39,075 nucleotides of DNA from NCBI GenBank assembly GCA_017457865.1, contig JAFTGN010000051.1:1-39075 (forward strand), given 5' to 3'. This stretch comes from Lachnospiraceae bacterium (lineage in GTDB: Bacteria > Bacillota > Clostridia > Lachnospirales > Lachnospiraceae). Both the position numbers and the translations under genes were made by a program. How positions within the stretch are numbered: the stretch's first letter is position 1; each line of letters starts with the position of its first letter. Below the pieces are notes generated by a model. It was not told where the DNA came from and did no database searches. It saw nothing but the letters and a program-made list of their open reading frames with translations. This document shows, in pieces, positions 1 through 7,746 of this stretch.

Positions 1-258
1 CCTGTTCCAGTATCTTCTGTTTCTTCTCTGCCGTCAGACTTGCCAAAAACAGCACGCCCAGAAGTCTGAGAACAGGATGGGAGCCTCTCTGTTCTTCTGT
101 CTCTTTGTCAAGACATAACAGCACTACCGTCAAATCCATGCCAGAATATATTTCTCTGCCAAGATACGCTTACACGCCGCATCATAAGCAGCCTTGGCGC
201 CTGCTGTCTGCAACTTCTGTGATATGGTTGTCTGCGTACGTCCTCCTCTATTCCCCTA
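1..258 (-). pseudogene. Decayed Rpn-type nuclease/transposase remnant (partial at window edge)
   Basis: On the minus strand two pieces of one protein type can be read in different frames. The upstream piece (about 258 down to 133) reads AAYDAACKRILAEKYILAWI and then hits a stop. The downstream piece (about 169 down to 1) contains SGMDLTVVLLCLDKE and later LLGVLFLASLTAEKKQKILE. From memory these resemble the N-terminal and C-terminal parts of Rpn/PDDEXK recombination-promoting nuclease-like proteins of Lachnospiraceae. The middle, where the nuclease core should be, is missing, and there is no credible start codon. I read this as an internally deleted, frameshifted remnant. It runs off the left edge, so the extreme C-terminus is unseen. 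Family assignment rests on recall only. Confidence 0.5.
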
Positions 259-259
259 T

Positions 260-484
260 TTTATCCCCAGGTAACACAACAATTGTGATACCATCATTAT
301 ACATCTGTTTAGATATTATGTCTATTTATTTTTATGTTGACTTTTTATAAAGTATCTCACAACTGGTGTATTTTTTGGCCCTTGCCATACAATATGTTTC
401 ACAATCGGCATGATTTGTAATTTACAATTGATAAAAGTGATTGGTACAACAGATTGGTTGTTGAGAAAATGAAGGATTGGCAGA
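260..484. other. AT-rich intergenic stretch, no gene seen
   Basis: Between the Rpn remnant and the terminator after the 89-aa gene I see no reading frame with a ribosome binding site. The stretch marks the left edge of the AT-rich island. Confidence 0.5.
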
Positions 485-530
485 AAAAGGTCTAAATAAT
501 CAAATGTTCTCTTGATTATTCAGACCTTTT
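485..530 (-). terminator. Rho-independent terminator after the 89-aa gene
   Basis: Long stem: AAAAGGTCTAAATAATCAA (485-503) pairs with 512-530 with one wobble, loop about 8 bases, A-rich on the left and T-rich on the right, so it could work in both directions. It lies about 25 bases downstream of the minus-strand 89-aa gene. Confidence 0.8.
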
Positions 531-555
531 CTTTCTACTTGTATTTAACTTTTAT

Positions 556-825
556 TTATGCAGATTTTGCCAAATATACCCAATGATCTAACGATTTTGT
601 TAAGTCCAAACATCCACTTTCATTCATCAATGCTACATACTTCTTTGCTGTTTCAAATTTCATTTTCTCTACTACATATACCCTTCCAGACATAGTATAG
701 ATATACAAAGTTGCTTTTTTAAATGGACTGGGATACCATCCTGTATCCAAACATACTTCTGTTACATTCTCTAATACACAATATTGCACATGCCTTTGTG
801 AAACCACCAAAAATAATGCTCTCAT
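556..825 (-). CDS. Hypothetical 89-aa protein
   Basis: I do not recognise this protein. It begins MRALFLVVSQRHVQYCVLEN and has no signal peptide or clear transmembrane segment; it reads as a small soluble alpha/beta protein with a central YIYTMSGRVYVVEKM strand-rich section. The start is supported by AAAGGTGG about 8 bases upstream of the ATG, and a strong terminator follows the stop, so it is probably a real monocistronic gene. It sits in the AT-rich island, oriented away from the XRE/RSH pair. No function can be inferred. Confidence 0.65.
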   Translation of the reverse strand: MRALFLVVSQRHVQYCVLENVTEVCLDTGWYPSPFKKATLYIYTMSGRVYVVEKMKFETAKKYVALMNESGCLDLTKSLDHWVYLAKSA

Positions 826-1008
826 AATAAGCCACCTTTCCCTTTAAATTCAAGTCTCGTGAGTCATTCTTCAAAATACTTCACATAGATTTTTCCGAAT
901 ATTTCATTTCTAAATATTCATTTACATAAAGCATTCTTACTATTATTTCACCCACATAAGTGGAAACAAGAGAACATTATATACAAGGTGCAAAAGAAAA
1001 AAGTTTTT
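826..1008. other. AT-rich intergenic region between divergent units
   Basis: No gene seen. It contains CAAGAGAACATT (967-978), the exact reverse complement of AATGTTCTCTTG in the terminator loop at 503-514; its AGAGAACATT core is also the complement of AATGTTCTCT in the candidate ncRNA (1069-1078). Confidence 0.4.
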
Positions 1009-1037
1009 TTGACAATCACTATATTTTTTGATATAAT
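1009..1037 (+). promoter_or_regulatory. Consensus sigma-A promoter of candidate ncRNA
   Basis: TTGACA (1009-1014), a 17-base spacer and TATAAT (1032-1037): both hexamers are perfect matches to the sigma-A consensus. Expected start is about 1044. No open reading frame follows before the terminator at 1082-1115. Confidence 0.8.
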
Positions 1038-1043
1038 AATTCT

Positions 1044-1116
1044 TGTACAGTTCGTTAGACCTTGGTCTAATGTTCTCTAAAGGGTCAGGTATTGCCAGTA
1101 CCTGATCCTTTTTTCT
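1044..1116 (+). ncRNA. Candidate small RNA (~70 nt), two hairpins
   Basis: A consensus promoter ends at 1037 and a rho-independent terminator ends at about 1115, defining a transcript of about 70 bases with no usable reading frame. The 5' half holds a perfect palindrome TTAGACC-TT-GGTCTAA (1055-1070); the 3' half is the terminator hairpin. It matches no RNA family I know. It lies about 490 bases upstream of the XRE gene and reads in the same direction, so it is either an independent sRNA or a prematurely terminated long leader. The independent promoter at 1405-1433 favours the first. Confidence 0.6.
1082..1115 (+). terminator. Rho-independent terminator of the candidate ncRNA
   Basis: GGGTCAGGTA (1082-1091) pairs with TACCTGATCC (1099-1108) with one G-U pair, 7-base loop, followed by TTTTTTC. 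Confidence 0.85.
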
Positions 1117-1404
1117 AAGAATAAATTCTTTAGATTTATTATATCAAGAGATTCACCACACGTCAAGTCTCTCTAAACTAAATCGTATTACAATATTTCA
1201 AATTCTATTTTGTTTTTTTCAAATTTTGTTTTCTTATTTTTGATTTTTTTCTATTCAATAACCATATTTTTTTCTATTTCTAAATTTCAAAACAAAATTT
1301 GTTATTTTTGAATCAATATTTGCACAAAGAGAATTTACAACATTATTATTTTTCTAACCATTTCTCTATATCTCATTTTCTTTTGATATTATTTCAAAAA
1401 ATAT
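1117..1404. other. Very AT-rich spacer
   Basis: Almost only A and T, with many T and A runs. No gene, tRNA or clear hairpin is seen. It separates the candidate ncRNA from the XRE promoter. Confidence 0.4.
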
Positions 1405-1433
1405 TTGTAAAAATATTCCAATTATGTTATAAT
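1405..1433 (+). promoter_or_regulatory. Promoter of the XRE / RSH-like operon
   Basis: TTGTAA (1405-1410), 17-base spacer, TATAAT (1428-1433). Start expected near 1440, giving a leader of about 90 bases before the ATG at 1532. Confidence 0.65.
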
Positions 1434-1464
1434 TAAATTAGAATTCTAAATAATTTTTATCCAT

Positions 1465-1494
1465 TTTTACAATCTATTGTAAAATACAATTGTA
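1465..1494 (+). promoter_or_regulatory. Operator-like palindromes upstream of XRE gene
   Basis: TTTTACAAT-CT-ATTGTAAAA (1465-1484) is a perfect inverted repeat and is directly followed by the palindrome TACAATTGTA (1485-1494). Both lie just downstream of the expected transcription start, where a repressor would block transcription. The obvious candidate ligand is the XRE-type protein encoded next (autoregulation, inferred). Confidence 0.55.
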
Positions 1495-1531
1495 CAATAC
1501 ACTATGTTTAATCACGAGGAAAGGAGTTTTT

Positions 1532-2656
1532 ATGGCAGACCAATCTATTGATCAATTTGAATCAGAAACACATCAAATTTTTATTCATAATTTCAAAAAC
1601 TTTATTAAAAAAGAACATTTAACCCAAAAACAACTTGCTATGAAAATAGGAGTTTTGGATTCCACAATATCTAACTGCAATCACAAATTACCTAGTTTGG
1701 ATTTTTTATTAAAATTAAAACGCTGTTTTCCAGATATTTCTTTAGACACATTCTTATTTGGTGAAATTTCCCCTGAAAGTTCATTTGAGATTTACCCTGA
1801 AACTTCCTTTTCAATTGAAAGTTTAGAAAAATTTTTCGGCATCTACTACTTATACTACGTCGATACAAGTAAAAAAATCTCGTCCAAAGAACAAGATTCT
1901 ACAGATTTCATGCTCAAAACAGGGCTTTTGTATGTATATCATGATCCACTTATAGGAAATGTGGAAAAAGCCACTTGTCTTGCTGTTTTCGGTCTGAAAA
2001 GAAGAGATGAAGCCGAAGAAATTCGAGAAAAAATTGCACAATTTCAATCTCTCAGCGGTGTTCTTGACTTTGTTAGGTTTTCTTATCCATATAACTTATA
2101 CACAGGAACATTCAGCTTGTCACAAACTCATATTTTTATTTCTTTAAAGCAAGACCACGACAACAAAGATAATTCACTTATCGTTCTGCACCGTCCAGAA
2201 TTGAAAAAACCCCAATATATTGGTGGTCTAGGTACCATAAACTCTGCCTCTAGTGGTCGACCCTCCGACCCGGTAGTGCAACTCATTGGGTTATCCAGAG
2301 AAAAATTATATCTTACAGACGAAGAGGTTAAAAAACTTTTACAATTTTCACCCCCAAACATCAACTTCAACGATGAAGCTGCTGAAATCCTTACACTAGT
2401 CCAAAAATTATATGAAAAAAAATCTACTTTACCGGACAAGCATACATCTGAAAATGATACCGTCGTTTTGCAGAAATATCTTCCTGATATTATTGAATCA
2501 AGATTAGGATTGCTTTTAACAAAAAATATTGAATCCAACGTACTCTGTTATGGAAAAGTCCATAACACTATGGATAATGCATGGTATCATGCATTAAACA
2601 ATTCAGCTGAAAAAAGAAAAAAGGAGGACACAGAATATGAAGAAAACATTTGGTAA
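1532..2656 (+). CDS. XRE-type HTH protein with unrecognised C-terminal domain
   Basis: A 374-aa protein. Residues about 12-65 form a helix-turn-helix of the Cro/C1 (XRE) type: EHLTQKQLAMKIGVLDSTIS is the two-helix core, followed by SLDFLLKLKRCFPDISLDTF, where such repressors usually end. The remaining ~300 residues are unfamiliar to me, with beta-rich stretches (GLLYVYHDPLIGN, LYTGTFSLSQTHIFISL, SLIVLHRPELKKPQYIGGLG) that suggest a ligand-sensing or effector domain. I chose ATG 1532 because GAAAGGAG lies 6-7 bases upstream; an ATG 42 bases earlier has no ribosome binding site. It overlaps the next gene by 20 bases, so translation is probably coupled. The operator-like palindromes upstream suggest autoregulation. 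Base composition is far more AT-rich than murC next door. Confidence 0.75.
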   Translation: MADQSIDQFESETHQIFIHNFKNFIKKEHLTQKQLAMKIGVLDSTISNCNHKLPSLDFLLKLKRCFPDISLDTFLFGEISPESSFEIYPETSFSIESLEKFFGIYYLYYVDTSKKISSKEQDSTDFMLKTGLLYVYHDPLIGNVEKATCLAVFGLKRRDEAEEIREKIAQFQSLSGVLDFVRFSYPYNLYTGTFSLSQTHIFISLKQDHDNKDNSLIVLHRPELKKPQYIGGLGTINSASSGRPSDPVVQLIGLSREKLYLTDEEVKKLLQFSPPNINFNDEAAEILTLVQKLYEKKSTLPDKHTSENDTVVLQKYLPDIIESRLGLLLTKNIESNVLCYGKVHNTMDNAWYHALNNSAEKRKKEDTEYEENIW

Positions 2657-3350
2657 CCTAATCGAACTTGTAAAAAAGCATCATATTTTAAAGCCAGATG
2701 ACATGAATCAATTCAATAATGCATTTAATTTCTTAGAAGAATGTAAAAAAAGAACCAATTACAACACAGAACATGCTCTTTCCGTGGCTTTTTATATTGC
2801 AGAATGCCGCTTTAATTATGACACCGTAATTGCTGCACTTTTACACGAAATTCCTCTAAATGAAATCAAACCACGCTTTCACAAAACTATACTAAAAACT
2901 TTAGAATCTTATCACGACATTCGAGGGAAATTTAAAAAAATCCAAAAAAAATATGAGCTCACTGGAAATTACGAATCCTTTCTTCCTCTAGATTTAGATT
3001 TATACAGTTTTTATATCATAATAGCAGATGAGTTGAAAGCACTGCAAGATTCTCAAAAATATACCAAAGACGTTTTGTTACAGGCAAAATATGCCCGTGA
3101 AATTCTAGTTCCACAAGTCCAAAAAATCCAAGCCTACAAGATTGCAGATGAACTATTAGATGCTTGCCTCAATATAGAAAATCATGCTATTTATACCGCA
3201 ATTACAAAAAAAATTGCCCAAAAAAAATTATATGGAAAATATTATCAACACGAGCTTTTAAAAAAAATGGAATTTTTTTCAATCCACATAATCAGGCAAT
3301 CTCCCCTTCACTCCAAAGGGATCAAAGTTATATTAAATATTTTAATATAA
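2637..3350 (+). CDS. N-terminal part of degenerate RelA/SpoT-like protein (HD-like region)
   Basis: 237 codons before a stop. Residues about 45-75 (EHALSVAFYIAECRFNYDTV then IAALLHEI) follow the RSH hydrolase pattern HPxxVAxILAxL..D..T..AALLHD, but the catalytic Asp of the HD pair is Glu. LYSFYIIIADELKALQDS corresponds to the KLADRLHNMRTL helix with the key Arg and Asn lost, and KIADELLDACLNIENHAIY fits the following helical region. So this looks like a hydrolase-dead HD domain. The start is supported by AAAGGAGG upstream of ATG 2637, inside the end of the XRE gene. The last ~28 residues (after HELLKKMEFF) appear out of frame: the natural continuation is in the -1 frame (see 3260-4336). Confidence 0.65.
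   Translation: MKKTFGNLIELVKKHHILKPDDMNQFNNAFNFLEECKKRTNYNTEHALSVAFYIAECRFNYDTVIAALLHEIPLNEIKPRFHKTILKTLESYHDIRGKFKKIQKKYELTGNYESFLPLDLDLYSFYIIIADELKALQDSQKYTKDVLLQAKYAREILVPQVQKIQAYKIADELLDACLNIENHAIYTAITKKIAQKKLYGKYYQHELLKKMEFFSIHIIRQSPLHSKGIKVILNILI
3260..3279 (+). other. Candidate -1 slippage/frameshift site
   Basis: A8 (3260-3267) in the register A_AAA_AAA of the upstream frame is a classical -1 slippery heptamer and also a transcriptional slippage run. Twelve bases on lies a T7 run (3273-3279), where one extra T would also restore the frame. No strong stimulatory hairpin is seen at the usual distance. Confidence 0.45.
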
Positions 3351-4336
3351 ACGACCGTGCGCTTTTCAGCATTTATCGATACATCCATAAAAAACGGCCT
3401 CAAACAAAATCCGATTTTATAAGACTATTACAAAATAGTAACCTTGCCATGTACGATATTACACTAATCATCAACGATGATATACATAAAGAATCTACAC
3501 TTTCTCCTATTGATATTTTTTTTCACTATTTCCATATTTATTCAAAAGAGCTTGGACTTTTTATACTAGATTATTGCAATACCACGCATAAAGATTCTTC
3601 TTATTTTATGTTATGTGATACAATGAACAACTTATACCGTTTTTTCGTAAAAACCGAAACTGACTATTCTTATTACTTATTCGGTGATATTATAGACAAC
3701 GATAAAAATGTATTTATTTTCCACAATCCCGAAAACAAAATTAATGTTTTTAAGGATGATGGTGCTTGCACAACAATGCCAGTAGGATCAACCGTACTGG
3801 ATTTTGCATTCAAACTCCACGAGGATATTGGTTTATCTTTCGATTATGCACTTTTAAACAACAACACGGAACACATACCTGCGCACACACAATTAAATCA
3901 AGGAGACGCAGTCAAAATTGTCCAAAAAGATGACTATTCTGCCGAAATACAATGGTTTCGATATGTCAAAAATCCAACTTCAGTTAACTCTCTTATTAAA
4001 TATTTTGCTAAAGAGTTATCCAGACTAAAACAAGATAAAGAAATCACCATTACCACAGAAGATGGATTACCTACCCGAATTGCCAATGGCGCAACTGCAC
4101 TAGATGTCGCCTTTCAAATTCATGAAGATTTAGGATTGCATTTTTCCTATGCTTTAATTAACGGAAAAAAGAAACATATGCCCGCACACACATTATTAAG
4201 AGATGGCGATTATGTCATTATCAAAAAAGCCAACAATGTATCGCCCGATTTGCAATGGTTTGGTTATGTAAAAACAAGATATGCTGTCAAACGTCTCATT
4301 CAGTATTTCAAAAAAAAATATAACTATTTCAATTGA
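3260..4336 (+). pseudogene. C-terminal part of the RSH-like protein: dead synthetase-like region plus two TGS domains
   Basis: This frame (358 codons counted from the A8 run) continues the preceding protein. Residues about 30-140 include ALFSIYRYIHKKRP, like the YSIYRKM segment of RelA synthetases, but no Lys/Arg-rich or EIQIRT-type catalytic motifs. Two TGS domains follow: about 151-225 (MPVGSTVLDFAFKLHEDIG) and about 262-326 (IANGATALDVAFQIHEDLG), each followed by an LQWFGYVK-type tail like the one after the RelA TGS. There is no ribosome binding site for an independent start, so I treat it as the second half of one protein of about 566 aa. It may be joined by -1 slippage on A AAA AAA (3260-3266), or be a true frameshift mutation at the T7 run 3273-3279. 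Function unknown; a ppGpp-related sensor or regulator is only a guess. Confidence 0.6.
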
Positions 4337-4491
4337 CCCTATTCAATTCATAATCCCTCTTTCATGCAGACGTGCTGGCACGCATCTGCTATGTATTAGA
4401 CTGCACCCCCGGTGATATCATAGAATATACACCGGGTCAGCAAACCGAGGTGTGACCACTTGCAAACCGATATTAGATAAGATATACTATT
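4337..4491. other. Intergenic stretch with two stable hairpins
   Basis: No gene. A hairpin GCAGACGTGC / GCACGCATCTGC (about 4367-4391) and a second with CCCGGTG / CACCGGG arms (about 4407-4437) follow the RSH-like gene. Neither has a T tract, so they are only possible terminators or remnants of a mobile element. Confidence 0.35.
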
Positions 4492-4583
4492 AGGGAATTG
4501 CGAAGCTTTTTTCAAGACAAAGGATGACCCACATCTTAAACTTACAGGAAAGGGCATTCTGCATCACAGTTTCGCAATGACCT
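4492..4583. repeat. Family A intergenic element, short copy (A3)
   Basis: A 92-base version of the element at 4633-4844. It begins with AATTGCGAAG and ends with AGTTTCGCAATGACC as imperfect terminal inverted repeats. Its right end (AAAGGGCATTCTGCATCACA) matches A1 (AAAGGCGTTCGGTATCGTA), and its left end (ACCCACATCTTAAA) matches CCTGTACATCAGAAA. The central stem is deleted. Confidence 0.6.
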
Positions 4584-4632
4584 ATCAACCTTTTTGAATC
4601 CACGGGGCATATCCTGCCCCCTACAGTGTATA

Positions 4633-4844
4633 TAGACAATTGCGAAACTCTTTGATATAGAGTAAAAACAGCCTGTACATCAGAAATTTTTCACTAAAAA
4701 ACTCTGTGGAATGCCGGTACTTTATTTTTTGAGCAATAAGCGATAAAAAATATTAGTACCGTTGCATGGAACCGAAGCGAGAGCGTGTTTTTTAGTAAAA
4801 ATTTTGATGAAAGGCGTTCGGTATCGTAGTTTCGCAATTGTCTA
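4633..4844. repeat. Family A intergenic element, full copy (A1)
   Basis: 212 bases with perfect 17-base terminal inverted repeats (TAGACAATTGCGAAACT and its complement). Nested inside are the stems ACTAAAAAAC/GTTTTTTAGT (4693-4702/4788-4797) and GGTACT/AGTACC (4716-4721/4755-4760). The element is bounded by near-identical 12-base direct repeats, CTACAGTGTATA (4621-4632) and CTACAGTGCATA (4845-4856), as expected for a small mobile element. It lies directly upstream of the murC ribosome binding site. A second full copy is at 7749-8083. Confidence 0.75.
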
Positions 4845-4873
4845 CTACAGTGCATACGAATGGAGGATTTCCC

Positions 4874-6268
4874 ATGTATCATATTAATTTTTCCGACCCC
4901 ATTGCCATCCACTTTATCGGCATCGGGGGCATCAGCATGAGTGGTCTGGCTTCCATTCTGCTGACAGAAGGCTTTACGGTATCCGGTTCCGATGCCCAGG
5001 CTTCTGCCCTGACAGAGGAACTGACCAGACAGGGCGCAGTGATTTATTACGGCCATCAGGCATCCAATCTGTCCGATCAGGTGCAGGCGGTAGTCTATAC
5101 CGCCGCAGTGAAAGAGGATAATGTAGAGATGCAGGCTGCCAGAGAACGGGGCATCCCGGTGCTGTCTCGAGCAGAGTTACTGGGACAGCTGATGTGCAAC
5201 TATCAAAATGCCATCGGCGTATCCGGTACCCACGGTAAAACCACCACCACTGGTATGCTGACAGAGGTACTGCTGGCGGCGGATACCAACCCGACCATCT
5301 CCATCGGCGGCATCCTGCCTACCATCGGCGGCAACATCCGGGTAGGCGGTTCCGATGTATTCGTCACAGAGGCATGTGAATACACCAACAGCTTCTTAAG
5401 CTTCCAGCCCAATATGGAGATTATTTTGAACATTAAGGCAGATCATCTGGACTTCTTCAAGGACATTGACGACATCCGCCATTCCTTCCACTTGTTTGCG
5501 GAAAAGTTAGGGAAGGACGGACTGCTGGTGATCAACGGTGACATTGATGATCTGCCAGCATTTTTAGAAGGGTTAGACTGCCGCATCCAGACTTTTGGCA
5601 CTGTACCGGAGGCCAATGACTACAGCGCCGCAGACATTACCTATGATGACTTCGGCTGTGCGTCCTTTACGGTGCTGCACCGGACAGAAGAAGGCATCGC
5701 CTCCATGGGTCAGGTCACCCTGCATGTGCCGGGCATCCATAACGTATACAATGCCCTGTCTGTGGTGGCACTGTGCCGTGCCATGGGATTGTCTATGGAA
5801 CAGATTGCCGCAGGCCTGTCTGCTTTTACCGGAACCAACCGCCGTTTCCAGAAAAAGGGCGAGATTGGCGGGGTAACCATCATTGACGATTACGCCCACC
5901 ATCCGGATGAGATTGCCGCCACCCTGGCAGCGGCAAAGAATTATCCGCACAGAAAGATCTGGTGTGTGTTCCAGTCTCATACCTATACCCGGACCAAGGC
6001 ACTGATGGATGAATTTGCCCAGACCCTGTCTGCCGCAGATGCAGTGGTACTGGCCGACATTTATCCGGCCAGAGAAACCGACAATCTGGGCATCTCCGCA
6101 CAGGATTTACAGGAAAAGATCGCTGCACTGGGTACAGAAGTGTACTACTTCCCGTCCTTTGATGAAATTGAAAATTTTTTACTGGAAAATTGTATCAACG
6201 GTGACTTGTTGATAACTATGGGTGCGGGAGACATTGTGAAAGTTGGAGAATCGCTGCTTGGCAAGTAG
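4874..6268 (+). CDS. murC: UDP-N-acetylmuramate--L-alanine ligase
   Basis: 464 aa, the normal MurC length. It ligates L-alanine to UDP-MurNAc with ATP, the first step of peptide stem assembly, in the cytoplasm. Visible motifs: N-terminal nucleotide-binding loop FIGIGGISMSGLA (residues about 12-24), the Mur-ligase ATP loop GVSGTHGKTTTTGM (about 115-128), TEACEY, and the C-terminal signature DDYAHHPDEI (about 336-345). The start ATG 4874 has GGAGG 7 bases upstream; the preceding in-frame ATG lacks one. It is the first gene of the housekeeping side, at clearly higher GC than the island before it. A family A repeat sits right upstream, and DnaA-like boxes begin immediately after its TAG stop. Confidence 0.97.
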   Translation: MYHINFSDPIAIHFIGIGGISMSGLASILLTEGFTVSGSDAQASALTEELTRQGAVIYYGHQASNLSDQVQAVVYTAAVKEDNVEMQAARERGIPVLSRAELLGQLMCNYQNAIGVSGTHGKTTTTGMLTEVLLAADTNPTISIGGILPTIGGNIRVGGSDVFVTEACEYTNSFLSFQPNMEIILNIKADHLDFFKDIDDIRHSFHLFAEKLGKDGLLVINGDIDDLPAFLEGLDCRIQTFGTVPEANDYSAADITYDDFGCASFTVLHRTEEGIASMGQVTLHVPGIHNVYNALSVVALCRAMGLSMEQIAAGLSAFTGTNRRFQKKGEIGGVTIIDDYAHHPDEIAATLAAAKNYPHRKIWCVFQSHTYTRTKALMDEFAQTLSAADAVVLADIYPARETDNLGISAQDLQEKIAALGTEVYYFPSFDEIENFLLENCINGDLLITMGAGDIVKVGESLLGK

Positions 6269-6469
6269 TTATCCACAATATCCACAGATTTATCAACAGT
6301 TTTGGCTGTTGGAATCTGTGGATTTTTTTGTGCATAACAGACCTGCTCCCCCTGTGTCAAAACCCCTTGTCATACAATGGAAATTTACACATTCTGTCGC
6401 AAAAACTGCCACTTTTTCCACATCATCCACAATATCCACAGGCTTTTCCACAACGCCTCCTGTGGATTC
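6269..6469. promoter_or_regulatory. Two tandem arrays of DnaA-box-like 9-mers
   Basis: A perfect DnaA box TTATCCACA (6269-6277) abuts the murC stop codon. It is followed by ATATCCACA (6278) and TTATCAACA (6290), and the reverse-type TGTGGATTT (6317). A second array reads TTTTCCACA (6414), TCATCCACA (6423), ATATCCACA (6432), TTTTCCACA (6444), with TGTGGATTC (6461) on the other strand. Most differ from the consensus at one position. Repeat spacings are 9 and 12 in the first array and 9, 9 and 12 in the second. DnaA control of the DnaD/DnaI-like genes downstream, or an origin-type or DnaA-titration site, are the options. Confidence 0.7.
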
Positions 6470-6477
6470 CCCCGCAC

Positions 6478-6506
6478 TTTCCAAAAAAATCAAAGTGTGT
6501 TATACT
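6478..6506 (+). promoter_or_regulatory. Promoter of the DnaD-like gene
   Basis: TTTCCA (6478-6483), 17-base spacer, TATACT (6501-6506). It lies just after the second DnaA-box array. A short hairpin GCCGGA/TCCGGC (6516-6521/6533-6538) follows in the leader. Confidence 0.5.
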
Positions 6507-6588
6507 GATTTTACTGCCGGAGAGGGGTAAAGTCCGGCCTGATTTGTAACTATTGAAAGCAAAGCAAATTTGAAAAATGGGGATGACT

Positions 6589-7746
6589 ATGAGCAAAATA
6601 CATGTGACAAATGCAATGTTACCAGACGCAATTCTGCTGCCTGGTACTTTTATCAACCAATATATGACCAGTGCCAGCGGAGAATTCGTGAAGATTTATA
6701 TTTATCTGTTTTACTCTGCCGGACAGGGACGTTTTCTGGACTTGTCTGCCATTGCAGACCATCTGCTGTGTACAGAAAGCGATATTCTCCGTGCGCTGAA
6801 ATACTGGGAGGCCCAGGGGATCCTGTCTCTCAACTGTGACGAAAAAGGACAGCTGGAGGAACTGGTCTTTGCAGATGTGACCGCTACTCCTCAGTCTGCC
6901 TCCTTAAATGTACGCAATCTTTCCAAAGAGGCTTCTGACCGCACCCATGCCTATACGGAAAAGATAACAGCCAGACAGGAAGCTTTCGTAGAACCCACAT
7001 CTGTCGACAAGTCTCCTTCTACAGAAACCCGTGTGACCAGACAGAAGGAAGTTCCCACAGCAGTTTCTGCCATTTCTCTGGAACACAATGCAGAGTTTCA
7101 GGAACTGTGCTTCCTGGCACAGACTTACATGAAGAAGACATTAACCTCCAGAGATACCCAGCGCCTTGGCTACTGGTATCAGCTGTACAATGGTTCTTAC
7201 AGTATCATCGAATATCTGTTAGAGTACTGTGTGGAAATCGGACATGCCAACTTCAACTACATGGAAAAGGTGTTGCTCAACTGGCATGAAAACGGCTATT
7301 CCACTGTGGCAGAAATCAAGGAGCATGGACAGGCACACAACATCATCACCTACAAGGTCATGGGAGCCTTTGGACTCCAAAACCGCAATCCCGGTGTGAA
7401 AGAAGCCGACTTCATCAAAAAGTGGTATCAAACCTACAGATTCCCCATCGACATGATCGAACTGGCATGCGAGAAAACACTGTCTGCCATCCAGAAGCCC
7501 AGTTTTGAGTACACCGACACCATTCTCACTGCCTGGCACAAAAAAGGACTGAAAACCCGCAAGGCAGTAGAAGAATCCGAGGCCGAACACAAGAAGAAAG
7601 AGGCCGAAACCAAACAGACCCAGTCTGCCCAGACAAAACAGACCCGGAAAAACACCACCGCCAACAACAAATTCCACAACTTCGACCAGCACGACACCGA
7701 CTACAATCAGCTGCTGTCCGACTACTATGGTGTGAAATTACAGTAA
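6589..7746 (+). CDS. DnaD-domain primosome protein
   Basis: About 385 aa. DnaD/DnaB-type proteins act with DnaA and the helicase loader to open origins and restart forks. N-terminal ~95 residues are winged-helix-like (GEFVKIYIYLFYSAGQG, LCTESDILRALKYWEAQGIL). After a low-complexity linker, two DnaD C-terminal-type helical modules follow: about 170-240 (TSRDTQRLGYWYQLYNGSYS, MEKVLLNWHENGYSTVAEIK) and about 270-335 (FIKKWYQTYRFPIDMIELAC, YTDTILTAWHKKGLKT). A Lys/Glu/Gln-rich tail follows. The start is uncertain among ATGs at 6577, 6583 and 6589; I prefer 6589, preceded by GGGGA. The helicase-loader-like gene follows after a family A repeat that starts three bases past the stop. Confidence 0.9.
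   Translation: MSKIHVTNAMLPDAILLPGTFINQYMTSASGEFVKIYIYLFYSAGQGRFLDLSAIADHLLCTESDILRALKYWEAQGILSLNCDEKGQLEELVFADVTATPQSASLNVRNLSKEASDRTHAYTEKITARQEAFVEPTSVDKSPSTETRVTRQKEVPTAVSAISLEHNAEFQELCFLAQTYMKKTLTSRDTQRLGYWYQLYNGSYSIIEYLLEYCVEIGHANFNYMEKVLLNWHENGYSTVAEIKEHGQAHNIITYKVMGAFGLQNRNPGVKEADFIKKWYQTYRFPIDMIELACEKTLSAIQKPSFEYTDTILTAWHKKGLKTRKAVEESEAEHKKKEAETKQTQSAQTKQTRKNTTANNKFHNFDQHDTDYNQLLSDYYGVKLQ

Follow-up and report, generated by a model that had tools for sequence, protein, structure and literature searches.

A divergent copy of a mainly clostridial gene pair for an XRE-type regulator and an RSH-like HD-TGS protein

A conserved gene pair in an AT-rich segment

The 39,075-nucleotide stretch of Lachnospiraceae DNA analyzed here (the window) contains a gene for an XRE-type regulator followed by an RSH-like gene, a pair that recurs mainly in other Clostridia and of which the window holds a divergent, degenerate and probably inactivated copy. 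The reading that we favor, with a confidence a little short of even, is that the pair represents an accessory operon, present mainly in Clostridia, in which an intact TGS-bearing alarmone hydrolase would answer to tRNA charging, with regulation by the XRE protein. No description of such a pair was found in a literature search of open-license PMC papers.

A search with a profile of the XRE protein recovered 39 loci, nearly all of them labelled Clostridia and often sampled from the gut or the rumen. At 37 of these loci the RSH-like gene is located 3' of the XRE gene on the same strand, and the remaining two stop at a contig edge. A preliminary description of this DNA had proposed that the two genes may be a module and suggested looking for them in other Clostridia; they are indeed conserved there as a pair, outside the source strain. 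The trees of the XRE proteins and the RSH-like proteins resolve the same main clades, and some members (L075, L077, L079 and L104) come from records that carry no metagenome-bin mark. When the whole XRE profile was run across the order, other HTH proteins crowded out the signal, and the sensor domain alone was therefore used for the wider searches. The unit is rare, since this search returned only the window's own match among the 391 genomes sampled from the class and the 398 sampled from the phylum, and no close relatives were found with a peptide pattern of the TGS half alone. A canonical Rel is also encoded in the source genome (L037, 6080-8401, 773 aa), and second matches in G004, G175 and G124 with open frames of more than 770 aa were counted as canonical Rel.

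The pair is carried by an accessory segment at positions 398..4434 (no strand assigned) with a GC content of 31.1%, as compared to 42.1% in positions 1-397 and 44.8% in positions 4435-39075. The segment is missing from the sister genome G299 (MurC identity 97%), which holds 73 different bases in its place: in the alignment to L112 from G299, window positions 121-397 correspond to 3408-3131 and positions 4435-7490 to 3057-1, with the 73 bases in between. The AT-rich insert noticed earlier is thus borne out by both the GC contrast and the replacement in the sister genome.

The XRE gene is located at 1532..2656 on the forward strand and encodes 374 aa, with an ATG at 1532 preceded by AAAGGAG. The following open reading frame starts at ATG 2637, preceded by AAGGAGG, so that the two overlap on the forward strand by exactly 20 bases (2637..2656), as had been described.

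The XRE-type regulator

The predicted regulator combines an XRE-type DNA-binding region, identified from HTH matches, with a sensor-like C-terminal domain, and it is 24-34% identical to its 36 homologs. Its Pfam match to the HTH is weak (HTH_3, E 0.002); across the family, HTH_3 was recovered in 35 of the 37 XRE members (E up to 1), consistent with a Cro/C1-type HTH. XRE-type proteins were also matched in a profile search of the PDB with a best E-value of 6.1e-10, and among the 60 of 67 matches listed, a single one fell outside the HTH region (E 0.14). The C-terminal domain (1829..2653, forward strand) is delimited by the 37-member alignment and a domain alignment, contains the motif YIGGxGTxNSxSxGR and has no Pfam family that we could see. 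An XRE protein with a long unfamiliar part, as first proposed, is therefore what we find, namely a weakly matching HTH and about 290 residues without a Pfam family. An XRE-sensor-like open reading frame was also seen in genome G502, with no RSH-like match within the 12 kb examined.

The RSH-like gene of the window

The RSH-like gene of the window is spread over two forward-strand frames. The first half (2637..3350, 237 aa) contains an HD domain at residues 43-155 (HD_4, E 2.1e-5, with a score slightly below the Pfam cut-off), while the second half (3164..4336, 390 aa), defined by its open reading frame and Pfam matches and with a natural start that is not fixed, contains the middle segment and two TGS domains. 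The profile of the relatives matches the first frame up to about position 3218 and the second frame, which is -1 relative to the first, from about 3275; the homology thus changes reading frame within 3220..3275 (forward strand). At this base composition, chance would produce open frames as long as these (237 and 390 codons) with probabilities of about 1e-8 and 1e-13, and the GC pattern by codon position is the same in both halves as in the XRE gene. The preliminary description had treated the second gene as a single one, but it had been translated across the break. In the window copy, HD and TGS have probably become disconnected by this change of frame.

The catalytic set of the HD domain was taken to be the R, H, HD, ED, D and N positions of the Rel literature. 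In the window, agreement with Rel is limited to 3 of the 10 positions checked, and the other 7 are lost. The replacement of Asp by Glu that had been pointed out is present, HE being found where Rel has HD, and it is accompanied by the loss of most other catalytic positions; catalysis is expected to have been lost in this copy.

Pfam TGS matches the 390-aa frame in two stretches (E 2.4e-23), in agreement with the two domains initially recognized. TGS domain 1 (3734..3919, forward strand; residues 191-252, E 3e-33) and TGS domain 2 (4037..4222, forward strand; residues 292-353, E 1.2e-31) both keep the position of the CCA-contacting histidine, in the motifs KLHEDIG and QIHEDLG, respectively. The histidine that contacts the CCA end of tRNA is given as H432 in E. 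coli RelA and H420 in B. subtilis Rel in PMC7058999. The two domains are 45% identical to each other over 95 aa and 33-36% identical to either TGS of L094, the one relative with a doubled TGS; since the window pair is more alike internally, the two duplications look separate.

HD, middle segment and TGS in the relatives

The RSH-like gene of the 37 relatives has no frame break (35 are complete and two are cut by contig ends), and the proteins are 470-514 aa long, except for L094 (608 aa) and two truncated rows. In 31 of the 37 relatives the HD domain retains its full set of eight catalytic residues; losses occur in the other six and in the window, spread over several lineages of the RSH-like tree (L104; L106; L068, L070 and L072; and the window). 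HD_4 was identified in three relatives with E-values of 4.8e-25, 1.5e-24 and 3.5e-17, and Pfam TGS in the same number of scanned relatives as well as in the window. One TGS domain is present in 34 of the 35 relatives that reach the C-terminus, two in L094, and in all 35 TGS lies in the same frame as HD. The CCA-contacting histidine is kept in 30 of these and replaced in five, including the first TGS of L094.

A dead RSH as a rule for the family was accordingly rejected, and so was a tandem TGS, which occurs in 1 of 35 relatives. The claim that a dead RSH scaffold and tandem TGS domains define the system cannot be upheld; typical members have an intact HD and one TGS. The preliminary description had itself listed homologs with intact residues and a single TGS as counter-evidence, and these were found (31 of 37 and 34 of 35, respectively), but a pair confined to the one strain, its other listed objection, was not, the pair being conserved elsewhere.

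The middle segment had been called synthetase-like. Its position and short motifs (SIY, YD..IV, VRT) fit a synthetase by eye, not above chance: neither the window nor any of three relatives has a Pfam synthetase match, the hhalign probability is at most 1.1%, and profile alignments give z-scores of 1.0-1.7 against column shuffles. Synthetase homology is thus unsupported in these tests, all of which are sequence tests. Downstream of TGS, no HEL, ZFD/CC or ACT/RRM domain was found by Pfam in the three scanned relatives.

Comparison with known RSH proteins

RSH enzymes are usually seen as long bifunctional proteins or as single-domain synthetases or hydrolases. Matches of the RSH-like family in the PDB profile search are mainly to Rel, RelA, SpoT and small alarmone hydrolases, and the family profile aligns to canonical Rel over the length from HD to TGS with an hhalign probability of 100% (E 1.3e-57). 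The likeness to bifunctional Rel, both the Rel of the same genome and solved structures, consists of HD and a TGS with its following helix, in the same order. Unlike Rel, the RSH-like protein has no detectable synthetase, HEL, ZFD or ACT/RRM domain and is preceded directly by the XRE-sensor gene, and the window copy further differs by its two TGS domains and degenerate HD.

The PDB entry 7QPR, listed among the matches as "ACT domain protein" (E 3.5e-59), is one that we take to be the hydrolase-only SpoT[Hs] of Acinetobacter baumannii, which shares with the family a retained hydrolase, the absence of synthetase function and the presence of TGS. As described in PMC9974481, the A. baumannii SpoT has a recognizable pseudo-synthetase, a whole C-terminal half and a TGS that has lost the histidine and serves as a scaffold rather than a tRNA sensor. 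In contrast, the RSH-like family keeps the histidine (30 of 35) and lacks the C-terminal half. Small alarmone hydrolases (Mesh1, RelH and others) resemble the family in having an RSH-kind HD without synthetase activity, and 4YF1, 3NR1 and 5VXA were among the matches, the first two of which are named as such hydrolases in PMC10434055. However, these are single-domain proteins, to which the RSH-like family adds a middle segment, TGS and a steady XRE partner. A precedent for an inactive HD retained in an RSH is E. coli RelA, according to Atkinson 2011 (PMC3153485), but that protein has an active synthetase, and none is detectable here.

Proposed function of the operon

In the operon that we favor, the first gene would encode an XRE protein that represses or activates transcription and carries a C-terminal sensor domain, and the second an RSH-derived protein with an HD domain of the (p)ppGpp hydrolase type, a middle segment (about 150 residues) at the position of Rel's synthetase, and TGS. 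In an intact member, TGS would read uncharged tRNA and thereby tune the hydrolysis of an alarmone-type nucleotide, and the XRE protein would sense the nucleotide or its partner and control the operon or nearby genes. This reading is drawn from the conserved pairing of the genes, the single continuous frame of the relatives, the hydrolase residues and CCA-contacting histidine that most of them retain, and the aminoacyl-tRNA synthetase genes near a minority of the loci. The hydrolase activity, its substrate, the sensing of tRNA and the XRE ligand are all predictions from sequence. Against the sensing of tRNA stand the replacement of the TGS histidine in five of 35 relatives and the scaffold role of TGS in the hydrolase-only SpoT (PMC9974481). 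A sensor-type XRE protein next to an RSH-derived TGS protein fits the sensing of nucleotides or of the state of tRNA or ribosomes. The sensing idea raised at the outset agrees in this respect with a conserved XRE/RSH-TGS module, but not in its basis in a dead scaffold, with HD intact in most relatives. Hydrolysis may nevertheless not be the conserved function, since the HD residues have been lost in separate lineages.

We consider unlikely an extended version of this reading, in which an RSH without synthetase would use a TGS that recognizes the CCA end of tRNA to couple uncharged tRNA to alarmone breakdown and report to a dedicated XRE factor with a new kind of sensor, with aminoacyl-tRNA synthetase genes next to the pair in some lineages, and in which the enzyme of the window lineage, its HD dead, would now act purely as a tRNA sensor with two TGS domains. 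More generally, an XRE sensor steadily paired with an HD-TGS protein in which no synthetase is detectable would connect the charging of tRNA and the breakdown of alarmones directly with the transcription of one operon, and would reveal a role of TGS apart from the remaining, ribosome-binding half of Rel. The family supplies intact members together with natural dead-HD or doubled-TGS variants that amount to built-in mutants.

Alternative explanations

The state of the window copy can be explained in several ways. A serious possibility, to which we give somewhat less credence than to a probable event, is that an operon was acquired and has simply decayed to a pseudogene here, HD degeneration and TGS duplication being by-products of relaxed selection. 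The frame break, set against one open frame in the relatives, the loss of seven HD positions and the absence of the segment from the sister genome all agree with decay. Yet there is a single lesion in about 1.7 kb, codon periodicity is intact in both halves, the XRE frame is intact, and both TGS copies retain the histidine. This last feature would also suit a pseudo-enzyme HD that has been kept in a few lineages (the window, L072, L104 and L106) in a protein that only senses tRNA or nucleotides for the XRE regulator, as would the full-length frames (470-500 aa) of HD-loss relatives across several lineages and the substitutions that L072 and the window have in common (positions 44 and 78). We consider such a sensor unlikely, given that none of the eight residues is missing in 31 of 37 relatives, that the window gene is split, and that L072, whose TGS histidine is gone, forms no exclusive group with the window. 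The split could itself be an assembly or sequencing indel in a gene that is truly one open frame, because it falls among four runs of 7-8 A or T (within 3206-3279) in a draft genome of 114 contigs; no positive sign of an error was seen, and we rate this as similarly improbable. Programmed -1 frameshifting, yielding a full-length and an HD-only protein, would match the -1 register and the slippery-type heptamers in the switch interval. Such heptamers are, however, common in this AT-rich DNA (seven in the HD frame and six in the XRE frame) and the relatives need no shift, so that we give frameshifting the slimmest chance.

The placement of an enzyme gene closely 3' of an XRE gene, and the sporadic distribution in an accessory segment, would also suit a module that acts as a toxin-antitoxin pair or against phages, the XRE protein being the antitoxin. 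PADLOC models matched one of 33 RSH-like members weakly (PtuB, E 0.003). Among 92 neighbors from 25 loci, 14 models matched one protein each and none recurred; six of these are PDC-S01 candidate defense models, which at least one neighbor matches strongly (best E 7.9e-137), while the polymerase and kinase models look to us like cross-hits. No toxSAS-type synthetase domain was found by Pfam in three RSH-like relatives, nor a synthetase family among the 25 of 60 listed Pfam families matched by the 37 XRE proteins, and searches of viral contigs, plasmids and phages returned no relatives. A toxin-antitoxin or anti-phage role is thus very unlikely, and the defense module suggested earlier has no consistent defense context in PADLOC, in the neighborhoods or in the phage, plasmid and viral searches.

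Upstream regions and neighboring genes

A weak candidate promoter precedes the XRE gene at 1405..1433 on the forward strand (10 of 12 consensus positions, a TG and a 17-nt spacer); the region holds 26 promoter-like sites as compared to 22.6 in shuffles (sd 3.7), which is no clear excess. A short DNA match to this upstream promoter in genome G301 looks like mere promoter similarity. No shared operator was obvious in the aligned upstream regions of the XRE genes from five clades, and no T-box was found directly 5' of the pair in the 39 loci at Rfam gathering scores.

Among the neighbors with an assignable name, housekeeping and metabolic genes predominate, and many neighbors have no match. Aminoacyl-tRNA synthetase genes are located nearby at 11 of the 39 loci, in three or four lineages, and the other 28 have none of the six kinds sought. 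This signal was noticed post hoc, eight of the 11 loci belong to a single clade, L087 and L090 are possibly sisters, and the significance at the level of lineages is marginal. Genes for the His and Asp enzymes are found in group I, for Ser and Val in L087 (one on each side), for Ile in L090, and for Asp and Asn in L100, where the AspRS gene is preceded by the only T-box found.

Gene Organization at the Window Locus

Contig C36, which was taken whole as the window, belongs to a draft genome of 2.61 Mb in 114 contigs. The GC content is 31.1% in segment 398-4434 as compared to 44.8% in 4435-39075, in agreement with the AT-rich insert between higher-GC DNA noted in a preliminary description of the locus. 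The segment contains on the plus strand a gene for an XRE-type protein of 374 amino acids (ATG at 1532, stop at 2656), which overlaps by 20 bases, as also noted previously, with an ORF starting with ATG at 2637; the ribosome-binding sites at both starts were judged good by eye. The second gene had been described as a single gene, but it is divided over two frames, with the HD domain in 2637-3350 (+) and the remainder, a middle segment with the two TGS domains, in a different frame, 3164-4336 (+). With a profile of ten relatives, the match to the first frame ends near 3218 and that to the second begins near 3275, and four runs of A or T of 7-8 bases are located within 3206-3279. The codon-position GC is similar across the XRE gene, the HD half and the TGS half, and it is very unlikely that open frames this long arose by chance, which argues for a break that is recent, due to misassembly, or somehow bridged.

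Conservation and Distribution of the Gene Pair

The TGS half was searched against 299 genomes from the family, including its own. Excluding the latter, four genomes (G004, G175, G124, and G019) contained matches that clearly outscored those to canonical Rel, and both genes were adjacent in three of them, while the match in G124 begins at a contig edge. The genome collection was then searched with A3, a profile built from four XRE proteins, and 39 loci were recovered. This set does not include the record of the window itself, and L077, L094, and L106 correspond, judging from contig and protein lengths, to the records already met as G004, G175, and G019. By label, 37 loci belong to the Clostridia or groups within (those named are Lachnospiraceae, Saccharofermentans, Christensenella, and Clostridium), one to Enterococcus and one to a Prevotellaceae bin. 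The pair is conserved outside this strain, in that the RSH-like profile matched the gene that follows on the same strand in 37 of the 39 loci; in the other two, L086 and L099, the contig stops at or just past the XRE gene. The spacing between the two genes ranges from -86 to +41 bases, using first-possible start codons, and all 37 encode the RSH-like protein in an uninterrupted frame, although it is truncated by the contig end in L091 and L097. A search with the sensor domain (E up to 1e-6) of 391 genomes sampled from the class and 398 from the phylum recovered only the window's own match, and searches of viral contigs, plasmids and phages detected no relatives. Thus, the two-gene unit is real but rare.

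The main clades agree in the XRE and RSH gene trees, in which several rows, including the window, are on long branches. With its two pieces joined in one row, the window RSH-like protein was placed beside L068-L074 (support 95/86). Its XRE protein is of unsure placement, as a neighbor of the long-branched L106. The HD motifs on the contig of L097, the Prevotellaceae-labeled bin, resemble those of Saccharofermentans and Lachnospiraceae members, and its label is possibly a binning error. In genome G502 (L111, 8137-8958, minus strand), the motif YIGGAGAILSVSRG was observed in an XRE-sensor ORF of shorter length. Since no RSH-like match was identified in the 12 kb read, the sensor may occur without an RSH-like partner.

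Domain Structure of the Two Proteins

The HD-to-TGS region of the RSH-like profile aligned to canonical Rel with 100% probability. The segment in the position of the synthetase matched the canonical Rel synthetase with a probability of at most 1.1% and a z-score of 1.0-1.7 relative to column shuffles, which in some cases gave higher scores, so that the synthetase-like region of the preliminary description is not borne out. Short motifs in the middle segment are similar by eye to those of synthetases, and a pseudo-synthetase is possible. Pfam searches with three relatives identified HD_4/HD and TGS, and otherwise nothing of note.

The inactive HD domain proposed earlier would fit the window, where 3 of 10 checked positions are kept, but not the family, since 31 of 37 relatives retain the full set of eight HD residues (R, H, H, D, E, D, D, N), which is incomplete in L068, L070, L072, L097, L104, and L106. 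The full-length relative L072 has the same changes as the window at positions 44 and 78, which hints that an intact gene can tolerate a dead HD domain. Likewise, the two TGS domains are present in the window but are not a family trait: 34 of the 35 relatives that reach this domain contain a single copy, and L094 contains two. The window copies are 45% identical to each other and 33-36% identical to those of L094, and the two duplications therefore look independent. A TGS histidine touches the CCA end of the tRNA in RelA and Rel, according to PMC7058999. This position is kept in both window TGS domains and in 30 of 35 relatives (absent in L094, L073, L070, L072, and L089).

In the XRE proteins, HTH_3 was matched in 35 of 37 (E up to 1). 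No Pfam family was found for the C-terminal domain among the matches listed, and the best PDB relative beyond the HTH among the matches listed had an E-value of 0.14. The strongest motif of this domain is YIGGxGTxNSxSxGR.

Judging from its anatomy, an intact member would be an alarmone hydrolase without a synthetase, whose TGS domain could read uncharged tRNA. This suggests an operon for a TGS-bearing hydrolase and an XRE regulator that would respond to a signal through a sensor domain of its own. A counterexample is the hydrolase-only SpoT of Acinetobacter, in which the TGS domain has lost the histidine and itself acts as a scaffold (PMC9974481), whereas the histidine is mostly kept in the XRE-paired RSH-like proteins. 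A survey of the RSH superfamily from 2011 distinguished long RSHs from synthetase-only and hydrolase-only groups, and its accessible text includes no HD-TGS group that has an XRE partner (PMC3153485). Nor was a description of such a pair found in a literature search that lay mostly outside subscription journals.

The window copy, which has lost most HD residues, has a doubled TGS domain and is split between frames in this assembly, is more likely to be a failing than a working copy, and it may be a dead sensor.

Genomic Neighborhood of the Pair

No third gene accompanies the pair across loci, and shared neighbors were mostly confined to one clade. For 25 chosen loci, we collected the nearest two genes of at least 150 amino acids on each side and used 92 of these 93 neighbors, leaving one out. 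Among the Pfam matches listed were tRNA-synt_2 (at least three), tRNA-synt_His (at least two), tRNA-synt_1 and tRNA-synt_2b (at least one each). As identified with NCBIfam, AspRS and AsnRS directly precede the pair in L100, HisRS is located beside it in L077 and L081, AspRS is among the neighbors in L076, and IleRS is located three genes before it in L090. In L087 (4440-9530), SerRS, the pair and a ValRS fragment truncated at the contig end follow one another on a single strand. BLAST searches for these six kinds of synthetases (Asp, Asn, Ser, Val, His, Ile) identified them near 11 of the 39 loci, directly adjacent in 8, with one clade supplying eight of the 11; a sister relationship of L087 and L090 is possible (82/45). 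If such synthetases are assumed to make up about 0.9% of genes, and with about 20 lineages of 9 neighbors each, a synthetase neighbor in four lineages is only mildly unusual (about 0.07 by hand estimate) and a directly adjacent one in three lineages more so (about 0.005 by hand estimate), for a pattern that was observed post hoc. A T-box was identified ahead of AspRS in L100, and none before the pair itself in the 39 loci. A TwoAYGGAY RNA motif (90 bits) is located just downstream of the hisS gene adjoining the pair in L077 (4299-4464, minus strand).

Of the 33 RSH-like members scanned with PADLOC, one had a match, a weak one. For the 92 neighbors, 14 models matched one protein each, and none recurred among the 25 loci. 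Six were PDC-S01 models, with a best E-value of 7.9e-137, which makes a defence gene near one locus possible.

The Accessory Segment

The MurC protein of the sister genome G299, which is 74% complete, is 97% identical. Window positions 121-397 and 4435-7490 align to one G299 contig, where 73 bases of other sequence separate them, so the 4-kb segment represents a presence/absence difference. Its low GC content makes acquisition by transfer the simpler explanation, although it may instead have been lost in G299. The XRE gene is present in one of three genomes of the genus, the window's own. The left flank (1-397) matches coding DNA in the sister genome, the product of which we take to resemble a remnant of a PD-(D/E)XK-type transposase. 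Nested inverted repeats, one of them with perfectly matching 17-base arms (4633-4649 and 4828-4844), are located at 4491-4844 just ahead of murC, in a region that aligns with the sister genome.

The segment also contains a mini-module at 480-1185, with fold z-scores of -6.6 and -7.4. An ORF of 89 codons (556-825) on the minus strand is accompanied by a promoter-like sequence at 1166-1138 and a strong hairpin with a T-rich tail at about 525-485. Facing it is a perfect consensus promoter on the plus strand (1009-1037), followed by a predicted two-hairpin RNA (1044-1118, ends assumed). This arrangement looks like a gene under antisense-RNA control. The RNA is antisense to the beginning of the minus-strand transcript, and the loop of the facing hairpin is complementary over its full 8 bases to AUGUUCUC in the RNA. 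A terminator scan of the region listed neither hairpin, and there was no Rfam match. For the 89-amino-acid protein, a search of 249 other sampled genomes of the family (E up to 1e-5) yielded no relatives, and its Pfam matches are below threshold (e.g., bPH_2, E 0.011).

On the sister contig L112, roughly 2 kb away from the empty site, an ORF at 5225-5953 resembles a small alarmone synthetase of the RelQ/RelP type, as judged by eye solely on the basis of its NGYRSLH motif.
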